From IMG/VR virus record IMGVR_UViG_3300010885_012900, positions 1 through 21,440 of that record: a DNA stretch of 21,440 nt; one strand, written 5' to 3'. The stretch's first letter is position 1; each line of letters begins with the position of its first letter. Under the pieces are notes generated by a model that did no database searches, was not told the DNA's origin, and saw nothing but the letters and a program-made list of their open reading frames with translations. The translations under genes and the position numbers were made by a program. Source of the DNA: a virus. This document shows positions 1 to 12,324 of this stretch, one piece after another.

Positions 1-11
1 ATTTGGTAAAA

Positions 12-84
12 TGTCCCTGCTAGGAATCGAACCTAGATAATTCGCTTAGAAGGCGAATGTTCTATCCATTGAACTACAGGGACA
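12..84 (-). tRNA. tRNA-Arg (anticodon TCT)
   Basis: A full 73-nt cloverleaf folds on the minus strand. The acceptor stem is TGTCCCT with AGGGACA, the anticodon stem TTCGC/GCGAA encloses loop CTTCTAA, and the T arm carries the usual TTCGATT loop. The anticodon TCT reads AGA. The 3' CCA is not encoded. It lies 6 nt downstream of the ERF gene on the same strand, so it is probably processed from that operon transcript. AGA is frequent in late genes such as the one at 12326-13582, which suggests the tRNA supplements host decoding. Confidence 0.95.
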
Positions 85-90
85 GATTGG

Positions 91-861
91 TTAGAACGGA
101 ACTTCGTCTTGGGATTCGGGTTCAGAGTCTACACCATTCTGCTTCAAAGCCCAGAGAGCCTGTGCAGATTTCTTGAGGGACTGGTCTTTAGCACCGACCT
201 TACCAGTCTTTTCCCACGGCTTAGGCTCCCACTTGTTAGCCCAGTAGTCGAGGTCGCTATCAGGAAGGGCAGACAGAGAAGTACCCTTGTTCTTGCCGAA
301 CGGAACAGCGAGTTCGAAATCGATTCCAACGCTACCAGTGTGGGGTGCAACAAAGGTAGCAATAGGAGCCGACTTCTTTACAGCCACAGGAGCGGAGGAA
401 GTCTTAACCACTCGGTCTGCTTCACAGTCATCATCCGTGGTAGCCAGACCCCCGATGGAAGCCAGACAATAGCGTCTCAGGTAGGTCAGGATAGCACCAG
501 CCTGTTGACCAGTAGCCTGTTCACCTACAGGAACGATGCAGGAGGATTCGATGCTCGTGCCGTTCTTGTGGGCAATAATGGTCTTAATGCCAATGCCATT
601 GTCGTGGAACTCGGAGGTCGGCAGTTGAATCACCGTAAGACCGTGCTTGTGGAACAGGGGCTTAAGATAAGACAAGTGAGCCGATAGGCTGGCGAATTTC
701 GATTTAAAATGCGGATTAAAATCATCCGCAACAATGTCTTTCGTCTCAGAATGCACATTGCCTAGGGCGATGTACAACTCAGACAGGTTTGGCTTAGGTA
801 GCGTATCGTTTTGCATATCGATTCGTTTCCAGAGTTCGTTACTTCTTGCTAACCACTTCAT
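91..861 (-). CDS. erf: ERF-family single-strand annealing protein
   Basis: Likely 256-aa recombinase that anneals complementary single strands, probably those made by the exonuclease encoded upstream. The ERF signature is clear: an aromatic/Leu helix region at about 56-79, then a segment at about 119-145 with the QQAGAILTYLRRY pattern and the TTDDD end typical of the family. Residues about 186-216 (VPFGKNKGTSLSALP and following) resemble the small DUF3820-type module. The tail SQDEVPF resembles the acidic tip of SSB. The ATG at 861 was chosen because AAAGG lies 7 nt upstream. A longer start at 903 has no usable ribosome binding site and would overlap the upstream gene by 65 bases instead of 23. 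Last protein gene of the operon, just before tRNA-Arg. Family call is confident; the roles of the C-terminal module and tail are inferred. Confidence 0.88.
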   Translation of the reverse strand: MKWLARSNELWKRIDMQNDTLPKPNLSELYIALGNVHSETKDIVADDFNPHFKSKFASLSAHLSYLKPLFHKHGLTVIQLPTSEFHDNGIGIKTIIAHKNGTSIESSCIVPVGEQATGQQAGAILTYLRRYCLASIGGLATTDDDCEADRVVKTSSAPVAVKKSAPIATFVAPHTGSVGIDFELAVPFGKNKGTSLSALPDSDLDYWANKWEPKPWEKTGKVGAKDQSLKKSAQALWALKQNGVDSEPESQDEVPF

Positions 862-1054
862 CGTTAACCTTTCGGCTATTGGATGCATTGATTCGAACAG
901 CATTGCCTTGGTCGTTGATGAACGAATAGTACAGGTAGTGCTTAACCTTTACAGGCTTCAGCAATCGTGCCATTCGACCATCTGGGAGTACGATGTACTT
1001 CCGTGCGTTATTGACCTCAATGATAGAGGCCGTTTCGGTATTTTGGGTTTCCAT
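839..1054 (-). CDS. Small hypothetical protein between helicase loader and ERF
   Basis: Not recognised. The 71-aa product begins METQNTETASIIEV and has a central segment (ARKYIVLPDGRMARLLKPVK) that looks like a short beta-rich fold, with a Lys/Arg-rich C-terminus. The open frame extends back to 1222, but that part overlaps the helicase loader gene. The ATG at 1054 leaves a 16-base gap after the loader stop, so it is preferred although no Shine-Dalgarno is seen. It overlaps the ERF start by 23 bases. Its position in a replication/recombination operon suggests an accessory role there, with no direct evidence. Confidence 0.6.
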   Translation of the reverse strand: METQNTETASIIEVNNARKYIVLPDGRMARLLKPVKVKHYLYYSFINDQGNAVRINASNSRKVNDEVVSKK

Positions 1055-1070
1055 ATGTTTGGGTGGGAAA

Positions 1071-1757
1071 TTACTGAGCGGCTCCGTAGATTCGGAAGTA
1101 GTCCTTAAGTCTGCGAATGATTGCAGAGCCTGTCTCTCCGTTTGAGAATCTGTCGGATAGTCCGCTTCCGTTGTAGTTGGTTGTGATAATGGTCGGGCGT
1201 TTATTGGATGTTCGCTCGTCAATGATAGAGAATAAATCGCTCTCCATTCGTTGGGTCAAGCGTTCTTTTCCTAAATCGTCAATGACCAGCAGGGAGCAAG
1301 AAGTCAGACGCTCGATGACATCACCGTGGTTCTGGTTGGCAAAGCCCTTCTCGATTTCAGACTCCAGTTTACGCATCGTCAGGAAGATGCTATGCTTCGG
1401 GTAGAAGTGTAGCCACGCCTTGTTGTACATCGCCCACGCACACCGTGTCTTGCCTGTGCCAGTGACACCGTGAAGCAGGACGCTCTGCTCTGGTGTGTAC
1501 TCCTGCAACGCCACCTGCATCTGCTGTGCAAGTTTGCTTTCGATGGTATCGTGGAACGCCAGAGGAGTGGAAGGATGCATCGACTTGAAGCACCAGTTGT
1601 GCTTGTTGAAGACATCCTTGTAGTAGTACGGATACTCGTGATGTTCCTTGTGAGGGAAGCAGTCAAGGCACACTGCGATAAACGGTTTAAACTTTTGACT
1701 TGTTGAGTCCCAGACAGGGACTGCGTCAGCCTTACAGTGAATGCACTTAGAAGCCAT
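1071..1757 (-). CDS. dnaC: DnaC/IstB-like helicase loader ATPase
   Basis: AAA+ ATPase of the DnaC/IstB type, 228 aa, expected to load a replicative helicase at the phage origin. An N-terminal zinc site is suggested by Cys5/Cys8 and Cys30/Cys33. Walker A is GVTGTGKT at 97-104, Walker B is LLVIDD at 156-161, sensor 1 is TIITTNYN near 189-196, and a paired arginine at 215-216 (AIIRRLKDYF) fits the arginine-finger region. Its start lies inside the last codons of the initiator gene (11-base overlap), so the two are translated together, as with lambda O and P. No helicase gene is seen in the window, so a host helicase is the likely partner, unless one is encoded elsewhere in the phage. No Shine-Dalgarno precedes the ATG. 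Confidence 0.9.
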   Translation of the reverse strand: MASKCIHCKADAVPVWDSTSQKFKPFIAVCLDCFPHKEHHEYPYYYKDVFNKHNWCFKSMHPSTPLAFHDTIESKLAQQMQVALQEYTPEQSVLLHGVTGTGKTRCAWAMYNKAWLHFYPKHSIFLTMRKLESEIEKGFANQNHGDVIERLTSCSLLVIDDLGKERLTQRMESDLFSIIDERTSNKRPTIITTNYNGSGLSDRFSNGETGSAIIRRLKDYFRIYGAAQ

Positions 1758-2376
1758 TGGCGTGGTCGTTGTTGGTTAGCGTTTTGGTTTTGTTGGCAGT
1801 TACTACAAAAAGACCCTGCCAGCCGAAAGCAATGCTTTTGTTGATTGAATCAATTGCGTTTGTTTCGTTTGCCCAAGAGCCAAGCATTGTCAACTGCTCT
1901 TGTTGCGTCATCTCAGACAAAGGCTTCTTGATTTGCTTTCGATAATCTTTCCATTTGTGCCAAGACACTTTGAATGCGTCTCCGTAAGGAAGGGTTAGGG
2001 TAGGTTTATCCTCTTTTTTATCTACTGTTCTATCTGTAGGAAGTCTACTTCCCCCCCTGCGGGAAATAGGTTTCCCCCTCCCTAGGAAATCTGTAGCACC
2101 CACCAAGGCTTGCTTCTCCACTGTCCGTAGGATGCGTTTGCCGTTCACTTCGATGCGGACTACCAACTGGTAGTCGATAAGCGTTTTGAGGACATTCTTG
2201 ACCTGTCTGTCGCTCAGTTGCAGGGTCTGTGCAAGGTAGCCATTGGAGGCGAAACAGCCTTCTTCATTGTCGAGGGCGTTTACGATTCCGTACACCACCT
2301 TCTCGGTGATGGTAAGGGTTTCCATCTGGAAGACCTCTACAGGAATCCAGACACCAGTAAATGATGGCTTACTCAT
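1747..2376 (-). CDS. Phage replication initiator with winged-helix N-terminus
   Basis: A 209-aa protein. Residues about 20-85 form a winged helix-turn-helix (LTITEKVVYGIVNALD, then SDRQVKNVLKTLIDYQLVV), as in phage O-like and replisome-organiser proteins. Residues about 96-114 are a Gly/Arg/Pro-rich linker whose DNA carries three iterons. The C-terminal part (about 130-209) contains W/K-rich helices and may contact the helicase loader encoded next. Start and stop overlap both neighbours (ATGA with the exonuclease, 11 bases with the loader). The N-terminal DNA-binding domain, the linker iterons and the loader gene next door together make a lambda-O-like initiator the best reading. It could instead be a DnaD-like primosome protein, which would fill a similar role. 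Confidence 0.75.
   Translation of the reverse strand: MSKPSFTGVWIPVEVFQMETLTITEKVVYGIVNALDNEEGCFASNGYLAQTLQLSDRQVKNVLKTLIDYQLVVRIEVNGKRILRTVEKQALVGATDFLGRGKPISRRGGSRLPTDRTVDKKEDKPTLTLPYGDAFKVSWHKWKDYRKQIKKPLSEMTQQEQLTMLGSWANETNAIDSINKSIAFGWQGLFVVTANKTKTLTNNDHANGF
2005..2090 (-). repeat. Iteron cluster A inside the initiator gene (putative origin)
   Basis: On the minus strand, three related units begin at 2090, 2067 and 2044, exactly 23 bases apart: ATTTCCTAGGGAGGGGG, ATTTCCCGCAGGGGGGG and ACTTCCTACAGATAGAACAG. They are followed at about 2005-2030 by an A/T-rich tract (GTAGATAAAAAAGAGGATAA) that could serve as the unwinding element. Spacing of about two helical turns plus an adjacent AT-rich tract is typical of iteron origins. 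A second copy of the cluster occurs at 10969-11055. Use as an origin is inferred. Confidence 0.72.
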
Positions 2377-3155
2377 ACGATGTTTAAGTCTTCAAGAATT
2401 CCACCCTGTGGGCCTTCCCAGAAGTCGGAATGATTGCAATCCACATAGTCAAACAGACGCAAAAGAACGGCATTCTTCCACTTAACCAGTTCTTCAGGAG
2501 AAACCTGCCAGAAAGCACAAGTGCTAGGCTCAGAGGTTTCAACAGCGATAAACTCAAAACTGAACGGCTTGCCATAGCATTCTTCAGCCAGCAGACAGTA
2601 GAAAGCGGCCTGTACCCAGTACATCCTGTCTTTCACTGTGTACTTAAACTTAGTTCCAGATACATCGTCACACGATTTGATGTCCCTGATGATTCCGTTT
2701 TCGACATCAATGATATCGAGGCGAGCCTTACAGTCGATGCCAGCCAACTTGCCAAGCAGGACTAACTCTTTACGGATAGAAACCTGAGCCGCCATCCTCT
2801 GCCAGTCAGAGTTCTGATTGATAGCCTTGATGGCCCGAAGCACTACTGCCTCAGAGTCAGCCTTCAGGATGGTCTTGCCGATAGCACCCTCCTCAAAGGC
2901 TTGCTTGATGGCCTTACCCTCCTTGGTGCGTCCGTCCACATCAGGGAAGTAGGCAATAGTCTTGAGGTAATCCTCAGGCTGGAGCATAGCCGTGTGGATG
3001 GCAGTGCCAATCCTCATAGCCTCGGTTGTCTCAACCTCCTTCTGGTTACGGAAGTGATAGGGTGAGCGGAAGAACGCCTTGAAGCGGGAAGCATTCAGGG
3101 CGGGAAGAGAGCGGTATTCGCTCTCCGACATAGTGCTGACTAGCGTTGTTTTCAT
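2373..3155 (-). CDS. RecE-like PD-(D/E)XK exonuclease
   Basis: A 260-aa nuclease of the exodeoxyribonuclease VIII/PDDEXK type, expected to resect double-stranded ends for the ERF annealing protein. Visible motifs in order are MRIGTAIHTAML (His54), the acidic residue in KARLDII (Asp147), the IRDIKS motif (Asp158, Lys160), and the QxxxY helix (Gln182 to Tyr186). This is the expected catalytic set. The start at 3155 makes an ATGA overlap with the RusA-like gene and the end makes another ATGA overlap with the initiator gene. An internal ATG at 3131 is possible but would break the coupling. Exonuclease plus annealing protein is the standard two-component phage recombination pair. Confidence 0.87.
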   Translation of the reverse strand: MKTTLVSTMSESEYRSLPALNASRFKAFFRSPYHFRNQKEVETTEAMRIGTAIHTAMLQPEDYLKTIAYFPDVDGRTKEGKAIKQAFEEGAIGKTILKADSEAVVLRAIKAINQNSDWQRMAAQVSIRKELVLLGKLAGIDCKARLDIIDVENGIIRDIKSCDDVSGTKFKYTVKDRMYWVQAAFYCLLAEECYGKPFSFEFIAVETSEPSTCAFWQVSPEELVKWKNAVLLRLFDYVDCNHSDFWEGPQGGILEDLNIV

Positions 3156-3598
3156 TGGTTGTTTTGGTCGTAGTACATTTGCACAGATGGCTCCGTGCTC
3201 CAGTACTTCTCAATCTGTATGCTCCAGATTTGGGCATCGTCAAGCCAGTATCCGATTTTGGTAAATTCATCCAGAATGACCTTGACAACATTGTCCACAT
3301 CTGGTTTGGTGGTTTTTACAAGTGTTTTACACTTGCTAATTTTTGGTAAAAGGTACTTTGGGGGGCTATAGTAAAGCCTAATGTAGACCCTGATTGGCCC
3401 TTCGCAGGGCTTATCGGGCTTCCCAGCCACCATATACGGCCTAGCAAGGTCTACCCAAGCGGATACTTTGTTGTTTTTCATTTTTCCGACAAACATTTTG
3501 CCGCTTTTAGACCTAAGAACCCTCAAATTAGCCTGATGGGTGCTCTTGGGCGGCTCGATGGGCATAACTAACCAACATTGACTTGTAGGCAAATTCAT
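3152..3598 (-). CDS. rusA: RusA-like Holliday junction resolvase
   Basis: A 148-aa endodeoxyribonuclease of the RusA family, which cuts four-way junctions formed in recombination or replication. The diagnostic region is KTTKPDVDNVVKVILDEF followed by GYWLDDAQIWSIQIEKYW. The acidic residues of KPDVDN (about 100 and 102) and of LDDAQ (about 120-121) and the later Lys match the family's metal site. Length is close to typical RusA proteins. The frame is open to 3646, but the ATG at 3598 avoids overlap with the divergent gene starting at 3615. No Shine-Dalgarno is present. First gene of the minus-strand operon, so its promoter must lie in the 16-base gap or inside the divergent HTH gene. Confidence 0.88.
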   Translation of the reverse strand: MNLPTSQCWLVMPIEPPKSTHQANLRVLRSKSGKMFVGKMKNNKVSAWVDLARPYMVAGKPDKPCEGPIRVYIRLYYSPPKYLLPKISKCKTLVKTTKPDVDNVVKVILDEFTKIGYWLDDAQIWSIQIEKYWSTEPSVQMYYDQNNQ

Positions 3599-3614
3599 AA
3601 TAGCGTTGTTTTGT

Positions 3615-4070
3615 ATGGAATCTGAATCCAAATATGAAAGAGTCAAGAATGATAAGAAATCAACAACTCTTGAAAAACTTGACGCTAAAAAGAAGGAAGA
3701 AATTGTGTGGATGACCGAACAGGGCCATACTCAGAAGGAAATCGAGGAGAAAGTTGAGGTTTCTAGTCATACTGTGGTCGCTGTACGCCAAGATATGGGC
3801 AGTCAGGAGTCCCTAGACCTGAAGACTTACAAGGCCAAGACTTCTGACCTGTTTAAGTCTATCATTATGAAGGGTGCTCTCAGGCTTGATACTGAGATTG
3901 ATAAACTGCCTATCAGCCAGATGCCATTGGCACTAGCGATTCTCATCGACAAAGTACAGACCCTCAATGACCAGCCTGTAGTAGTTACTGAGCATCGCCT
4001 TAGAATCAAGCACGAAGATATTAATAAAATGATTTCAGGCGAGATTATTGACATTCCAGATTCAAAGTAA
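3615..4070 (+). CDS. Helix-turn-helix protein divergent from the replication operon
   Basis: A 151-aa protein with a strongly charged N-terminus and a helix-turn-helix at about residues 25-62 (KKEEIVWMTEQGHTQKEIEEKVEVSSHTVVAVRQD, read as two segments). The C-terminal half is helical (MPLALAILIDKVQTL) and ends in an acidic segment (HEDINKMISGEIIDI). The ATG at 3615 was chosen over a TTG nine bases earlier. It is divergent from the replication operon with only 16 bp between start codons, a layout typical of a regulator acting on both promoters. A small terminase subunit is a real alternative, since such proteins share this HTH plus helical layout and no other small subunit is recognised here. 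Confidence 0.7.
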   Translation: MESESKYERVKNDKKSTTLEKLDAKKKEEIVWMTEQGHTQKEIEEKVEVSSHTVVAVRQDMGSQESLDLKTYKAKTSDLFKSIIMKGALRLDTEIDKLPISQMPLALAILIDKVQTLNDQPVVVTEHRLRIKHEDINKMISGEIIDIPDSK

Positions 4071-10426: not shown

Positions 10427-10695
10427 GCATCAACGGCAAGATGGTGAAGGCGGTTCCAGCCAAGGCCACGCTCGCAAAACGATGCGAGCAAATCCGCATC
10501 GCTCATCACGCTCACTACAAAGCACGCAAAATGCTTCGCACGATGCGAGACGAACTCGTGGCGGCTAAGGCCGATGCGTATCGTGCAATCAATGACGCTA
10601 AGGACTCGGTGACCGAAGCACGGCTTCACCTGCTCCTCGCCAAGATTGATGTGATGCGTACCAAGCGTTCAATTCGCCAAGCGAAATGTCAGTGA
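10423..10695 (+). CDS. Small basic helical protein
   Basis: Not recognised. A 90-aa protein starting at GTG (GTGA overlap), almost entirely helical and rich in Ala, Lys and Arg (ARKMLRTMRDELVAAKADAY, then LHLLLAKIDVMRTKRS). It resembles the preceding basic protein in composition and may work with it, for example in DNA binding or as a coiled coil. Function is unknown. Confidence 0.65.
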   Translation: MSINGKMVKAVPAKATLAKRCEQIRIAHHAHYKARKMLRTMRDELVAAKADAYRAINDAKDSVTEARLHLLLAKIDVMRTKRSIRQAKCQ

Positions 10696-10751
10696 GCGTT
10701 ATCGCATTGGCATTGCTCCTGATTGTGATGCGTTGCTTAGACAGTAAGTGA
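10692..10751 (+). CDS. Putative 19-aa hydrophobic peptide
   Basis: A GTG in a GTGA overlap with the preceding stop opens the frame MSVIALALLLIVMRCLDSK and stop. The first 13 residues are hydrophobic and the tail is charged, a minimal membrane-anchor layout. It ends the operon just before the hairpin at 10775. Very short, so it may be chance; the coupling and its similarity to the peptide at 9719 are the only support. Confidence 0.38.
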   Translation: MSVIALALLLIVMRCLDSK

Positions 10752-10774
10752 TGCGTTGATACAGGCACGGCATT

Positions 10775-10837
10775 GTGAGAAAGAATCTCTGCTCCTCACG
10801 CAAGTGGGGGGCGGGGGTTCTCCTCACTTTTTCTCAC
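10775..10837 (+). terminator. Two-layer hairpin with GCAA tetraloop ending the middle operon
   Basis: A 17-bp stem (10783-10799 with 10804-10820) closes a GCAA loop. It uses several T.G pairs, giving a pyrimidine-rich left arm and a G-rich right arm. An outer layer pairs GTGAGAAA (10775-10782) with TTTCTCAC (10830-10837), leaving a bulge. A TTTTT run lies at 10828-10832. Likely the terminator of the middle operon, but its size and layering exceed what a terminator needs. Confidence 0.65.
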
Positions 10838-10968
10838 CCCTCTTCTACGGATTACAACACACACATTATATATGCAAAAGACATATAAGTCTGTGTAGGA
10901 AGGGGGTTATTAGGGGGATTGTTGGTTATGTCTGTCAAGCGGAATCTGTTAGTTTAGTGTTTTGGGTA
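10838..10968 (+). other. Non-coding junction with AT-rich segment and G-tracts
   Basis: Part of the 358-base gene-free stretch 10752-11109. It contains an AT-rich segment at about 10862-10890 with TATATG/CATATA inverted arms, then two G5 tracts at 10902-10906 and 10913-10917 that continue into the iteron cluster. A reading frame over 10756-11010 has unnatural composition and is not called. Confidence 0.6.
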
Positions 10969-11055
10969 GGGGGAAATCTATTTCCTAGGGGGGTGAAGCA
11001 GATTTCCTAGGGGGGGGTGCTATGGATTTCCTACATATAGAATAGTCTCATAGAA
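10969..11055 (+). repeat. Iteron cluster B in the middle/late junction
   Basis: Three units on the plus strand start at 10980, 11002 and 11026: ATTTCCTAGGGGGG, ATTTCCTAGGGGGGGG and ATTTCCTACATATAGAATAG, spaced 22 and 24 bases. They follow the same order as cluster A in the initiator gene; the third unit with its flank matches the third unit of A at 18 of 21 positions. Unit 1 also forms an inverted repeat GGAAAT-CT-ATTTCC (10972-10985). An AT-rich stretch with TAGAATAG twice follows. Likely binding sites for the same initiator: a second origin or a regulatory site for the late promoter. Confidence 0.72.
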
Positions 11056-11076
11056 TAGTATATCGATACAATAGGG

Positions 11077-11103
11077 TTGACATAGGTATTCATTGAGTAA
11101 TCT
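11077..11103 (+). promoter_or_regulatory. Candidate late promoter
   Basis: A perfect TTGACA (11077-11082) is followed 15 bases later by TAATCT (11098-11103), a short spacer but a reasonable -10. The start point would fall at or near the ATG at 11110, giving a nearly leaderless message. It lies directly downstream of iteron cluster B, so initiator binding could affect it. No second copy supports it. Confidence 0.35.
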
Positions 11104-11109
11104 GGGGGT

Positions 11110-11595
11110 ATGAACATCAAAGAAAGCGAACTGATTGAGAAGAACGGCTGGCTGAAGTCCGATTTGAAGGCGGTTCGCCACGATGCCATCGAGTTTGAGG
11201 GTATGCGGCTCTGGTTCCGTGAAGAATCGAAGAAACCTAAGCATCTTCAGACCATCTGGTGGACGGATGTTGGAGTTTTGTATCTGACTGAGTACTTCAG
11301 AGTTAAGACAGAACTTGAAACTCAACCTCCAATGCAAGAAAGTCGTGTTATGTCCAAGGAAGAGTTTGTTAAGTTGGTAAACAACTCTAAGTGGGTAGGC
11401 CGTGTTGTTAGAAATGGCTACAAGAACTTCAACACAGTTATGGTTGAACACGACTCTGGGTTTATGGTTCTAGTCAATTGTCGTAACAACAAAACCCTTC
11501 CAAAGAACTCGTATGTTGAAGTTGACACCAAGAATAACAACCACACCATTCGCAAACCCGCATTTAAATCCTATGAAAAAGCCAAGCAAGCCTAA
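11110..11595 (+). CDS. Hypothetical protein, first late gene
   Basis: Not recognised. A 161-aa protein with a charged N-terminal half (IKESELIEKNGWLKSDLKAV), a tryptophan-rich middle (MRLWFREE, LQTIWWTDVGVLYLTEYFRV), and a second half of strand-like segments (WVGRVVRNGYKNFNTVMVEH, FMVLVNCRNNKTLPKNSYVE) that could be a small beta-barrel. From about 11290 on, codon use shifts towards the AT-richer late style. It overlaps the next gene by 23 bases. A small terminase role cannot be excluded from position, but nothing in the sequence shows it. Confidence 0.7.
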   Translation: MNIKESELIEKNGWLKSDLKAVRHDAIEFEGMRLWFREESKKPKHLQTIWWTDVGVLYLTEYFRVKTELETQPPMQESRVMSKEEFVKLVNNSKWVGRVVRNGYKNFNTVMVEHDSGFMVLVNCRNNKTLPKNSYVEVDTKNNNHTIRKPAFKSYEKAKQA

Positions 11596-11764: not shown

Positions 11765-11877
11765 CCGAGCCAAATGATGAAGACGAAGAGGAGTCCACAG
11801 ACCCTCTAGACTTTATCTGGCTTAAAAAAATTGAAGCGATGCGTTGCTTTGCAACGCACAGATACACGCCACAGTAG
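11758..11877 (+). CDS. Putative 39-aa acidic peptide overlapping tRNA-Thr
   Basis: An ATG in an ATGCTAA overlap with the preceding gene opens a 39-codon frame: MLTEPNDEDEEESTDPLDFI, then WLKKIEAMRCFATHRYTPQ and TAG. The stop lies inside the 5' end of tRNA-Thr, so coding and tRNA overlap by 10 bases. The coupling and a protein-like C-terminal half support it; the overlap with a structural RNA argues for caution. Confidence 0.42.
   Translation: MLTEPNDEDEEESTDPLDFIWLKKIEAMRCFATHRYTPQ
11840..11858 (+). other. Hairpin just upstream of tRNA-Thr
   Basis: TGCGTTGC pairs perfectly with GCAACGCA around a TTT loop, ending 9 bases before the tRNA. There is no T-run, so a terminator is unlikely. It may mark or help 5' processing of the tRNA from the late transcript, and it overlaps the putative 39-codon frame. 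Confidence 0.5.
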
Positions 11878-11942
11878 CACAATGGTTGTGCAACAGTTTT
11901 GTAAACTGTAGGTTGTCGGTTCAAGTCCGACCTGCGGCCCCA
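11868..11942 (+). tRNA. tRNA-Thr (anticodon TGT) with encoded CCA
   Basis: Cloverleaf with acceptor GCCACAG/CTGCGGC (one A.C mismatch at the fourth pair), D stem GCAC/GTGC, anticodon stem ACAGT/ACTGT with loop TTTGTAA, and T stem GTCGG/CCGAC. Anticodon TGT reads ACA. The discriminator base is C, unusual for tRNA-Thr, and CCA is encoded (11940-11942), unlike the tRNA-Arg at 12-84. The HNH gene starts 5 bases later. Confidence 0.88.
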
Positions 11943-11946
11943 CTTT

Positions 11947-12324
11947 ATGGAAGAATGGAAGCCAGTACCAATCGAGCAATTTAAGGGCTTGTACGAGATT
12001 TCAAGCCTTGGACGGCTCAGGGCTTGCCCAAAGACCACAAGTGACGGCAGAAGGCTTCCTGAGCGGCTTGTTAAGCCTACTATCATCAACAGTGGCTATC
12101 TTCAGTTTAAGTTGCACAACAATAAGTTTAGGTTTAATGTAAACGCACATAAACTTGTTGCAATTACTTTTGGACTTATATACTGGAACGAACATTCCAA
12201 CTCTAACCTACAAATTAACCACATTGACGGCAATAAGCACAACAATGCGGTTTCTAACCTTGAAGCGTGTACACCTAGTGAAAACCTTCAACACGCTTGG
12301 AGAACTGGACTAAGAAAAAACTAA
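11947..12324 (+). CDS. NUMOD4-HNH homing endonuclease
   Basis: A 125-aa free-standing homing endonuclease. Residues about 3-25 (EWKPVPIEQFKGLYEISSLG plus RLR) match the NUMOD4 motif. The C-terminal part carries the HNH_3 pattern: NAHKLVAITFG, then LQINHIDGNKHNNAVSNLEA and SENLQHAWRTG, with the catalytic His in NHIDGNK and the NN pair present. Such genes cut DNA at a specific site and spread by repair. It starts 5 bases after the tRNA-Thr CCA end and ends 2 bases before the next gene, typical of an insertion that adds no function to the operon. No Shine-Dalgarno. Confidence 0.9.
   Translation: MEEWKPVPIEQFKGLYEISSLGRLRACPKTTSDGRRLPERLVKPTIINSGYLQFKLHNNKFRFNVNAHKLVAITFGLIYWNEHSNSNLQINHIDGNKHNNAVSNLEACTPSENLQHAWRTGLRKN

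Follow-up and report, generated by a model that had tools for sequence, protein, structure and literature searches.

A probable second origin-like site ahead of the late genes in a virus with a lambda O-like replication initiator

The virus record IMGVR_UViG_3300010885_012900 of IMG/VR (positions 1 to 21,440, the whole of which was analysed and is referred to here as the window) contains two clusters of short repeated units, one of which (cluster A) lies within the gene for a putative lambda O-like replication initiator, and the other (cluster B) within the intergenic interval from 10695 to 11110, immediately 5' of the first late gene (Table 1). An earlier note on this DNA had suggested that the clusters are either paired origins or an initiator-bound switch of late transcription; the sequence supports paired origins, whereas the late-transcription switch is unsupported so far. 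The position of A in an O-like initiator gene, the like units, spacing and AT-rich tract of B, and the co-variation of the two all suggest that B is a second initiator-bound, origin-like site, which we consider quite probable. Our best reading is that B is the counterpart of oriR in the Bacillus subtilis phage SPP1, for late replication or a theta-to-sigma switch; the chances of a theta-to-sigma role, judged by analogy, are a little short of even, and the explanation taken whole, a paired origin-like site together with its proposed role, is moderately favoured.

Two related clusters in inverted orientation

Cluster B was described in the earlier note as three units on the plus strand, and ATTTCCTA units are indeed found there at 10980, 11002 and 11026, with TTTCCTA at 10981, 11003 and 11027; the third unit and its flank share 18 of 21 positions (counted by eye) with those of cluster A. 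The inverted orientation and 8.9 kb separation of the two clusters are borne out by blastn and by a repeat search. Positions 1–3000 of the window match their own record on the opposite strand (67 bp, 76%, E 8.4e-6), and the inverted repeat pairs I1, I6 and I7 link A and B. When cluster A is compared with the rest of the window, B gives a score of 30 and the best other place 13, and the highest score reached in 100 dinucleotide-preserving shuffles is 18. The units are 14 bp long, with successive starts 22 and then 24 bp apart in B and a uniform 23 bp apart in A. Good dyads make up three of the six in the window's phage, and the remaining three retain one half-site (ATTTCC). The adjoining AT-rich tract of B resembles that beside A, and 11034–11074 within it is the second least stable 40 bp stretch of the window. 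The TTGACA at the far end of the tract is present in 19/19 copies of B found by the iteron pattern (some of them near-identical), a count taken from this iteron-anchored set only, because a further set of 22 aligned B sequences was itself selected by TTGACA. The placement of B outside any gene also holds up, as the sole mechanically called open reading frame over its left half (10756–11010, with a TTG start) is closed in the other 21/21 B sequences (at least two stops in frame at equal offset, with indels ignored).

Cluster A consists of inverted-repeat iterons followed by an A+T-rich tract, all inside the initiator gene. This resembles lambda, in which ori lies inside gene O and carries inverted-repeat iterons bound by initiator dimers next to an A+T-rich stretch; one unique origin is described for lambda, with no counterpart of cluster B (PMC5043065). 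Cluster A is origin-like, and its sequence suggests that the phage origin would lie here within the initiator gene, in the lambda arrangement. The dyads of A are partly degenerate in the window and cleaner in relatives such as G021. The structure model of the initiator has an N-terminal winged helix and a C-terminal helical domain, and residues ~93–124, encoded by the units and AT-rich tract of A, form a low-confidence linker between the two domains (predicted local distance difference test score <50 at residues 96–110 and 118–124). Foldseek searches with the model return titles such as 'initiator' and 'Rep-DNA complex' at or near the top, none of them with E<=0.001. Winged-helix N-terminal initiators of this kind (PDB 4pql, 4pt7 and 5kbj, which we take to be plasmid RepA proteins) show a weak likeness (best E 9.4e-3, TM-score ~0.3).

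Distribution of cluster B

Viral contig scans gave 29 initiator loci, together with TerL loci taken as the best 80 of 194, and further scans with three more distant initiators yielded additional loci; each genome was then probed by blastn with its own cluster A. B is present in all 11 close genomes that have both initiator and TerL (G001, G002, G003, G004, G006, G007, G008, G010, G014, G017 and G048), the initiators of which are down to 52% identical to that of the window. G001 is the phage of the window itself, with no difference in the proteins compared. The best E at B in these searches is 2.9e-8 or lower in eight of the close genomes, 2.4e-7 in G017, 7.3e-7 in G001 and 1.0e-6 in G002. The AT-rich side of B had been noted to face the late genes and that of A the opposite way, and in 11/11 close genomes B is inverted relative to A with its AT-rich side towards TerL. 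A more distant group (G029, G045 and G046; initiators 32–34% identical to the window's) has B in 3/3, built on each genome's own dyad (E 1.4e-6, 4e-11 and 3e-9 respectively). From the coordinates, A and B are ~7.7–9 kb apart in the close genomes and 10–12 kb apart in the distant group, and in 13/14 genomes they are inverted with their AT-rich sides pointing apart. A record without an initiator match, L073, also shows a B; in it and in G029, B is flipped relative to the late genes yet still lies just upstream of the first of them.

Among 29 TerL loci examined, B is found in 24; the upstream DNA of L049 and L060 is too short to judge, and L066, L067 and L071 (TerL 65–66% identical) have no B at the TerL locus. 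G005 has a B that is cut by the contig end. Left out of the counts were G044, in which the initiator is cut, and G011, G013, G034, G035, G036 and G037, which lack TerL or the upstream side. An extra set of 17 records includes eight without a TerL match, which were not counted, and among these G049 (L212) has B. Some of the contigs have features of their own. The 88,287-base record IMGVR_UViG_3300010970_000150 (L004, L040 and L161) encodes two initiators (94% and 47% identity to that of the window) and has two TerL genes ~44 kb apart, and may be two phage genomes joined in assembly. The end of G014 (IMGVR_UViG_3300032286_000345) is an exact 123-base repeat of its start, and G048 (IMGVR_UViG_3300028025_003567) has one 73-base B match at both contig ends, as expected of circular or circularly permuted genomes.

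Co-variation of the two clusters

Alignment across relatives, which the earlier note had proposed, shows that A and B co-vary within a phage. The dyad types differ strongly, being GGAAAT/ATTTCC in the window, GTGTAAT/ATTACAC and TTGCAC types in G008 and G048, GGCAA/TTGCC in G021 and G032, TGCGG/CCGCA in G012, GCCAG/CTGGC in G029, and others elsewhere, and where B is present it uses a close variant of the dyad of its own A. G029 has GCCAGNNNNCTGGC dyads and CACATATAGTAATAG at both A and B, and G045 has CTGGCACCATATAAGACTA at both sites where its relative G046 has CTAGCACCATATAAGACTA at both, which is one change in two places. The start of the AT-rich tract is identical between A and B in G003, G004, G006, G029, G045 and G046, and is not common to the two letter for letter in others, including the window's phage. 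Random pairings matched the likeness of own A–B pairs in 0/20,000 permutations of the 14 genomes and 1/20,000 of the 11 close ones, and in 0/20,000 for both sets after dinucleotide-shuffle scores were subtracted; the test treats related genomes as exchangeable, and these counts are not strict probabilities. The AT-rich side alone gives 0 in the close genomes. Likeness within own pairs is explained by change in concert under one initiator, or by the copying of A into B more than once, and would not be expected from a single divergence of A and B followed by drift. The presumed recognition helix (model residues 56–68) includes SDRQVKNVL in the window and SESSVRSSI in G029.

Mean column identity at B is 0.82 for the units and 0.74 for the AT-rich tract, compared with 0.62 for the spacer just upstream of B and 0.44 between TTGACA and the ATG, figures that are inflated by the choice of the 22 aligned sequences for G runs and a downstream TTGACA. 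Further upstream, GGGGGTTATTAGGGGG followed by TGTCAAG is kept in most of the 22 and missing in L022, L152 and L209. In TerL relatives without B (L071, L079 and L080), TGTCAAG and CTTGACA occur ~60 bp apart, facing outwards, with C-rich arms on both sides, and the arrangement resembles two divergent promoters or some other recognition site.

Evidence against a second origin-like site

Besides these limits on the permutation counts and the conservation figures, several observations weigh against B being a second origin-like site. Seventeen other relatives with initiator and TerL have no B detectable by blastn at E 0.01, and the second site is therefore dispensable in the wider group. The whole interval from A to TerL was searched in 11 of these (G002b, G012, G021, G025, G027, G032, G033, G041, G056, G057 and G058), and it wraps the contig end or is partial in the other six (G022, G026, G028, G052, G054 and G059). 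A dyad scan of the 17 found no second cluster, with single sites only (one 1.1 kb 5' of TerL in G002b and one with a mismatch in G022) and scattered matches of a short pattern in G026. The prediction that close relatives keeping A should also have B was tested and holds in 11/11, with the caution that G054 and 16 more distant relatives have A and no B; the TerL of G054 is 71% identical to the window's, B carriers start at 72%, and it is the searched part of its interval that lacks B. The units alone give a weaker co-variation signal in the 11 close genomes (130/20,000, or 133/20,000 corrected), and the pairing is weak in the window's own phage, where 6/10 of the other close Bs fit A better than the genome's own B does; in G002 the figure is 8/10. 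The block at 10900–10922 upstream of B is as well conserved (0.82) as the units. A profile of the initiators compared with solved structures finds no initiator among its matches, the best being a transcription regulator (E 0.006).

GC skew was considered as a sign of an origin and rejected. It is higher to the right than to the left of B in 10/10 B carriers, and it says nothing about B because it rises at the same junction in 11/12 B-lacking relatives too, a point which also fails to favour an origin here; the cumulative skew minimum lies within ~250 bp of B in 4/9 genomes and further off in 5/9.

Comparison with known replication systems

For SPP1 two origins are described, oriL within gene 38 and oriR in a long intergenic stretch, each with repeats and an AT-rich unwinding element and each bound by the initiator G38P; in the model given there, oriR-bound G38P stalls the fork, which is restarted as a concatemer-making fork by recombination proteins, among them a RusA-type resolvase (PMC6316719, PMC3485210, PMC5615212). 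The window has the like architecture and gene set: one origin-like cluster is in the initiator gene and a second, non-coding copy with like repeats and an A+T-rich tract is in the late region, and the same phage encodes a helicase loader, exonuclease, annealing protein and RusA-type resolvase. The SPP1 origins are 12–13 kb apart, compared with the distances given above. Unlike what is described for SPP1, A and B are in most genomes inverted with their AT-rich sides apart, runs of G or C separate the dyad-like units, and B lies right beside the first late gene. The SPP1-type pairing proposed here is an analogy drawn from architecture and gene set.

By this analogy one O-like initiator would serve both clusters, with dimers of its winged-helix domain binding the dyad units; the spacing of about two helical turns would let bound dimers line up, and the AT-rich tract adjoining the last unit would be opened. 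One site would start theta replication early, and the other, at the middle/late junction, would act later when bound by initiator, either by providing a second start or by blocking the fork. Recombination-dependent concatemer synthesis would then begin at the junction site through the ERF, exonuclease and RusA proteins, the genes of which neighbour that of the initiator.

Phages P1 and T4 have several origins by other routes, and in P1 the origin other than the lytic oriL uses another initiator. In searches of open-licence literature, SPP1 is the sole phage that we recognised with one initiator bound to two separated origins, and it is the one clear precedent found for such an arrangement. The role of its second origin is still a proposal. 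The lytic origin oriL of P1 is postulated to lie inside repL, and in this it resembles cluster A (PMC9948254). The 14 genomes in two groups with co-varying sites, set against 17 relatives with no second site detected, offer a natural comparison for the purpose of a second phage origin, and the several half-sites paired with initiator helices could aid in learning how this initiator family reads DNA.

Alternative roles for cluster B

Late transcription may help to open B; the lambda origin can be activated by a promoter that points away from it (PMC5043065). Negative supercoiling left in the wake of RNA polymerase that starts beside the AT-rich tract and travels outwards would aid the opening of B by the bound initiator, and the onset of late gene expression would thus time the switch to concatemer synthesis. 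We regard this scheme, with two concerted, outward-pointing origins under one initiator and the late one switched on by late transcription, as rather improbable; it supposes that two phage groups acquired or kept the transcription-opened origin independently. An operator that never fires, at which bound initiator represses or activates late transcription and so couples it to initiator concentration, is unlikely. The first late gene's match does begin 36–65 bp past the blastn hit of B in 11/11 close genomes, with the AT-rich side facing the gene, and the regular TTGACA fits such a role, yet an operator would need no AT-rich tract and A and B have one in common. A search for sigma-70 -35/-10 pairs (sigma-70 type only) calls no promoter-like site in 10600–11300, and TTGACA has no evident -10 partner. 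In G029 and L073 the cluster points the other way with respect to the late genes, and relatives without B retain their late genes, including TerL. The inversion of B in those two, together with its absence from many others, makes a late-promoter switch less likely than a second origin-like site.

Sites that bind initiator remotely are not without precedent, as is described for Vibrio cholerae chromosome 2, which is governed by RctB through crtS (PMC11711613). That B is likewise a titration or handcuffing site, limiting initiator activity at A without being an origin, we find slightly more doubtful than an operator, since a pure titration site needs no AT-rich tract, and that of B is conserved, co-varies with that of A, and comes close to being the least stable DNA in the window. 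An accidental, functionless duplication of A would agree with the occurrence of B in two groups and its absence from many relatives, as if it arose now and then, and is nonetheless very improbable: the stretch from TTGACA to the ATG and the upstream spacer diverge while B stays in 11/11 close genomes, across the full range of their initiators. Hardly any weight falls on a packaging or terminase-recognition site, or an operator of the winged-helix protein encoded at 11110–11595, even though B stands where the late and packaging module begins, beside a predicted DNA-binding protein; either leaves it unexplained that B copies the units of the initiator gene and changes with them, and some relatives without B (e.g. 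G012, G022 and G032) still match the neighbouring gene. A second origin-like site thus remains our preferred reading of B.

Two further candidates were set aside. A strand-specific role of G runs or G-quadruplexes was rejected, as the inter-unit run consists of G or of C depending on the phage (in G029 it is C at A and G at B; in G045 and G046 it is C at both). A late promoter element at 10846–10892, upstream of B, beats the best of 20 shuffles in 7/10 close genomes, including the window's own phage, and also in 2/18 B-lacking relatives, and we make no claim for it.

Gene context of the window

Table 1. Clusters A and B and neighbouring features of the window
Feature	Coordinates	Strand	Remarks
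ERF-type single-strand annealing protein	91–903	-	PF04404, 4e-15
DnaC-like helicase loader	1071–1757	-	phrog_50, 8.8e-29
Lambda O-like replication initiator (putative)	1747–2376	-	phrog_678 ('replication initiation O-like'), 3.6e-15; HTH_36, 1.1e-7; structure model
Cluster A	2005–2098	-	Three 14-bp dyad-like units and AT-rich tract, within initiator gene
AT-rich tract beside cluster A	2005–2038	-	Lower-coordinate side, coding; locally least stable stretch 2005–2045
Cluster A units	2085–2098, 2062–2075, 2039–2052	-	23 bp apart; span 2039–2098
Exonuclease VIII-like PD-(D/E)XK nuclease	2373–3155	-	Pfam and PHROG matches
RusA-type Holliday junction resolvase	3152–3646	-	PF05866, 2.8e-19
Terminator-like hairpin	10782–10821	+	After middle genes
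Conserved block GGGGGTTATTAGGGGG ... TGTCAAG	10902–10939	+	Upstream of B; alignment of B sequences
Cluster B	10965–11076	+	Three 14-bp dyad-like units, then AT-rich tract
Cluster B unit 1	10972–10985	+	GGAAATCTATTTCC, perfect dyad
Cluster B unit 2	10994–11007	+	TGAAGCAGATTTCC, imperfect dyad
Cluster B unit 3	11018–11031	+	TGCTATGGATTTCC, one strong half-site
Cluster B AT-rich tract	11034–11076	+	Candidate unwinding element; resembles tract beside A
TTGACA	11077–11082	+	Far end of B's AT-rich tract; starts 33 bp 5' of first late gene
First late gene	11110–11595	+	Predicted winged helix and IF1-like OB fold

The window has no near DNA match in the annotated phage collection, and the best cultured relatives in phage records are distant (initiator, 29.8% identical in Pseudomonas phage Cruim01; TerL, 30.3% in Phage C75C1). 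The early genes are on the minus strand and the late genes on the plus strand, the late module including TerL, portal, a scaffold-like protein and an SU10-type major capsid protein. Neither Pfam nor PHROG has a match to the product of the first late gene; its model combines a winged helix at the N terminus with an OB fold at the C terminus resembling that of translation initiation factor IF1, and it is possibly a small terminase or a late regulator. At 11868–12324, within the late module, a NUMOD4/HNH endonuclease gene comes directly after a tRNA-Thr.
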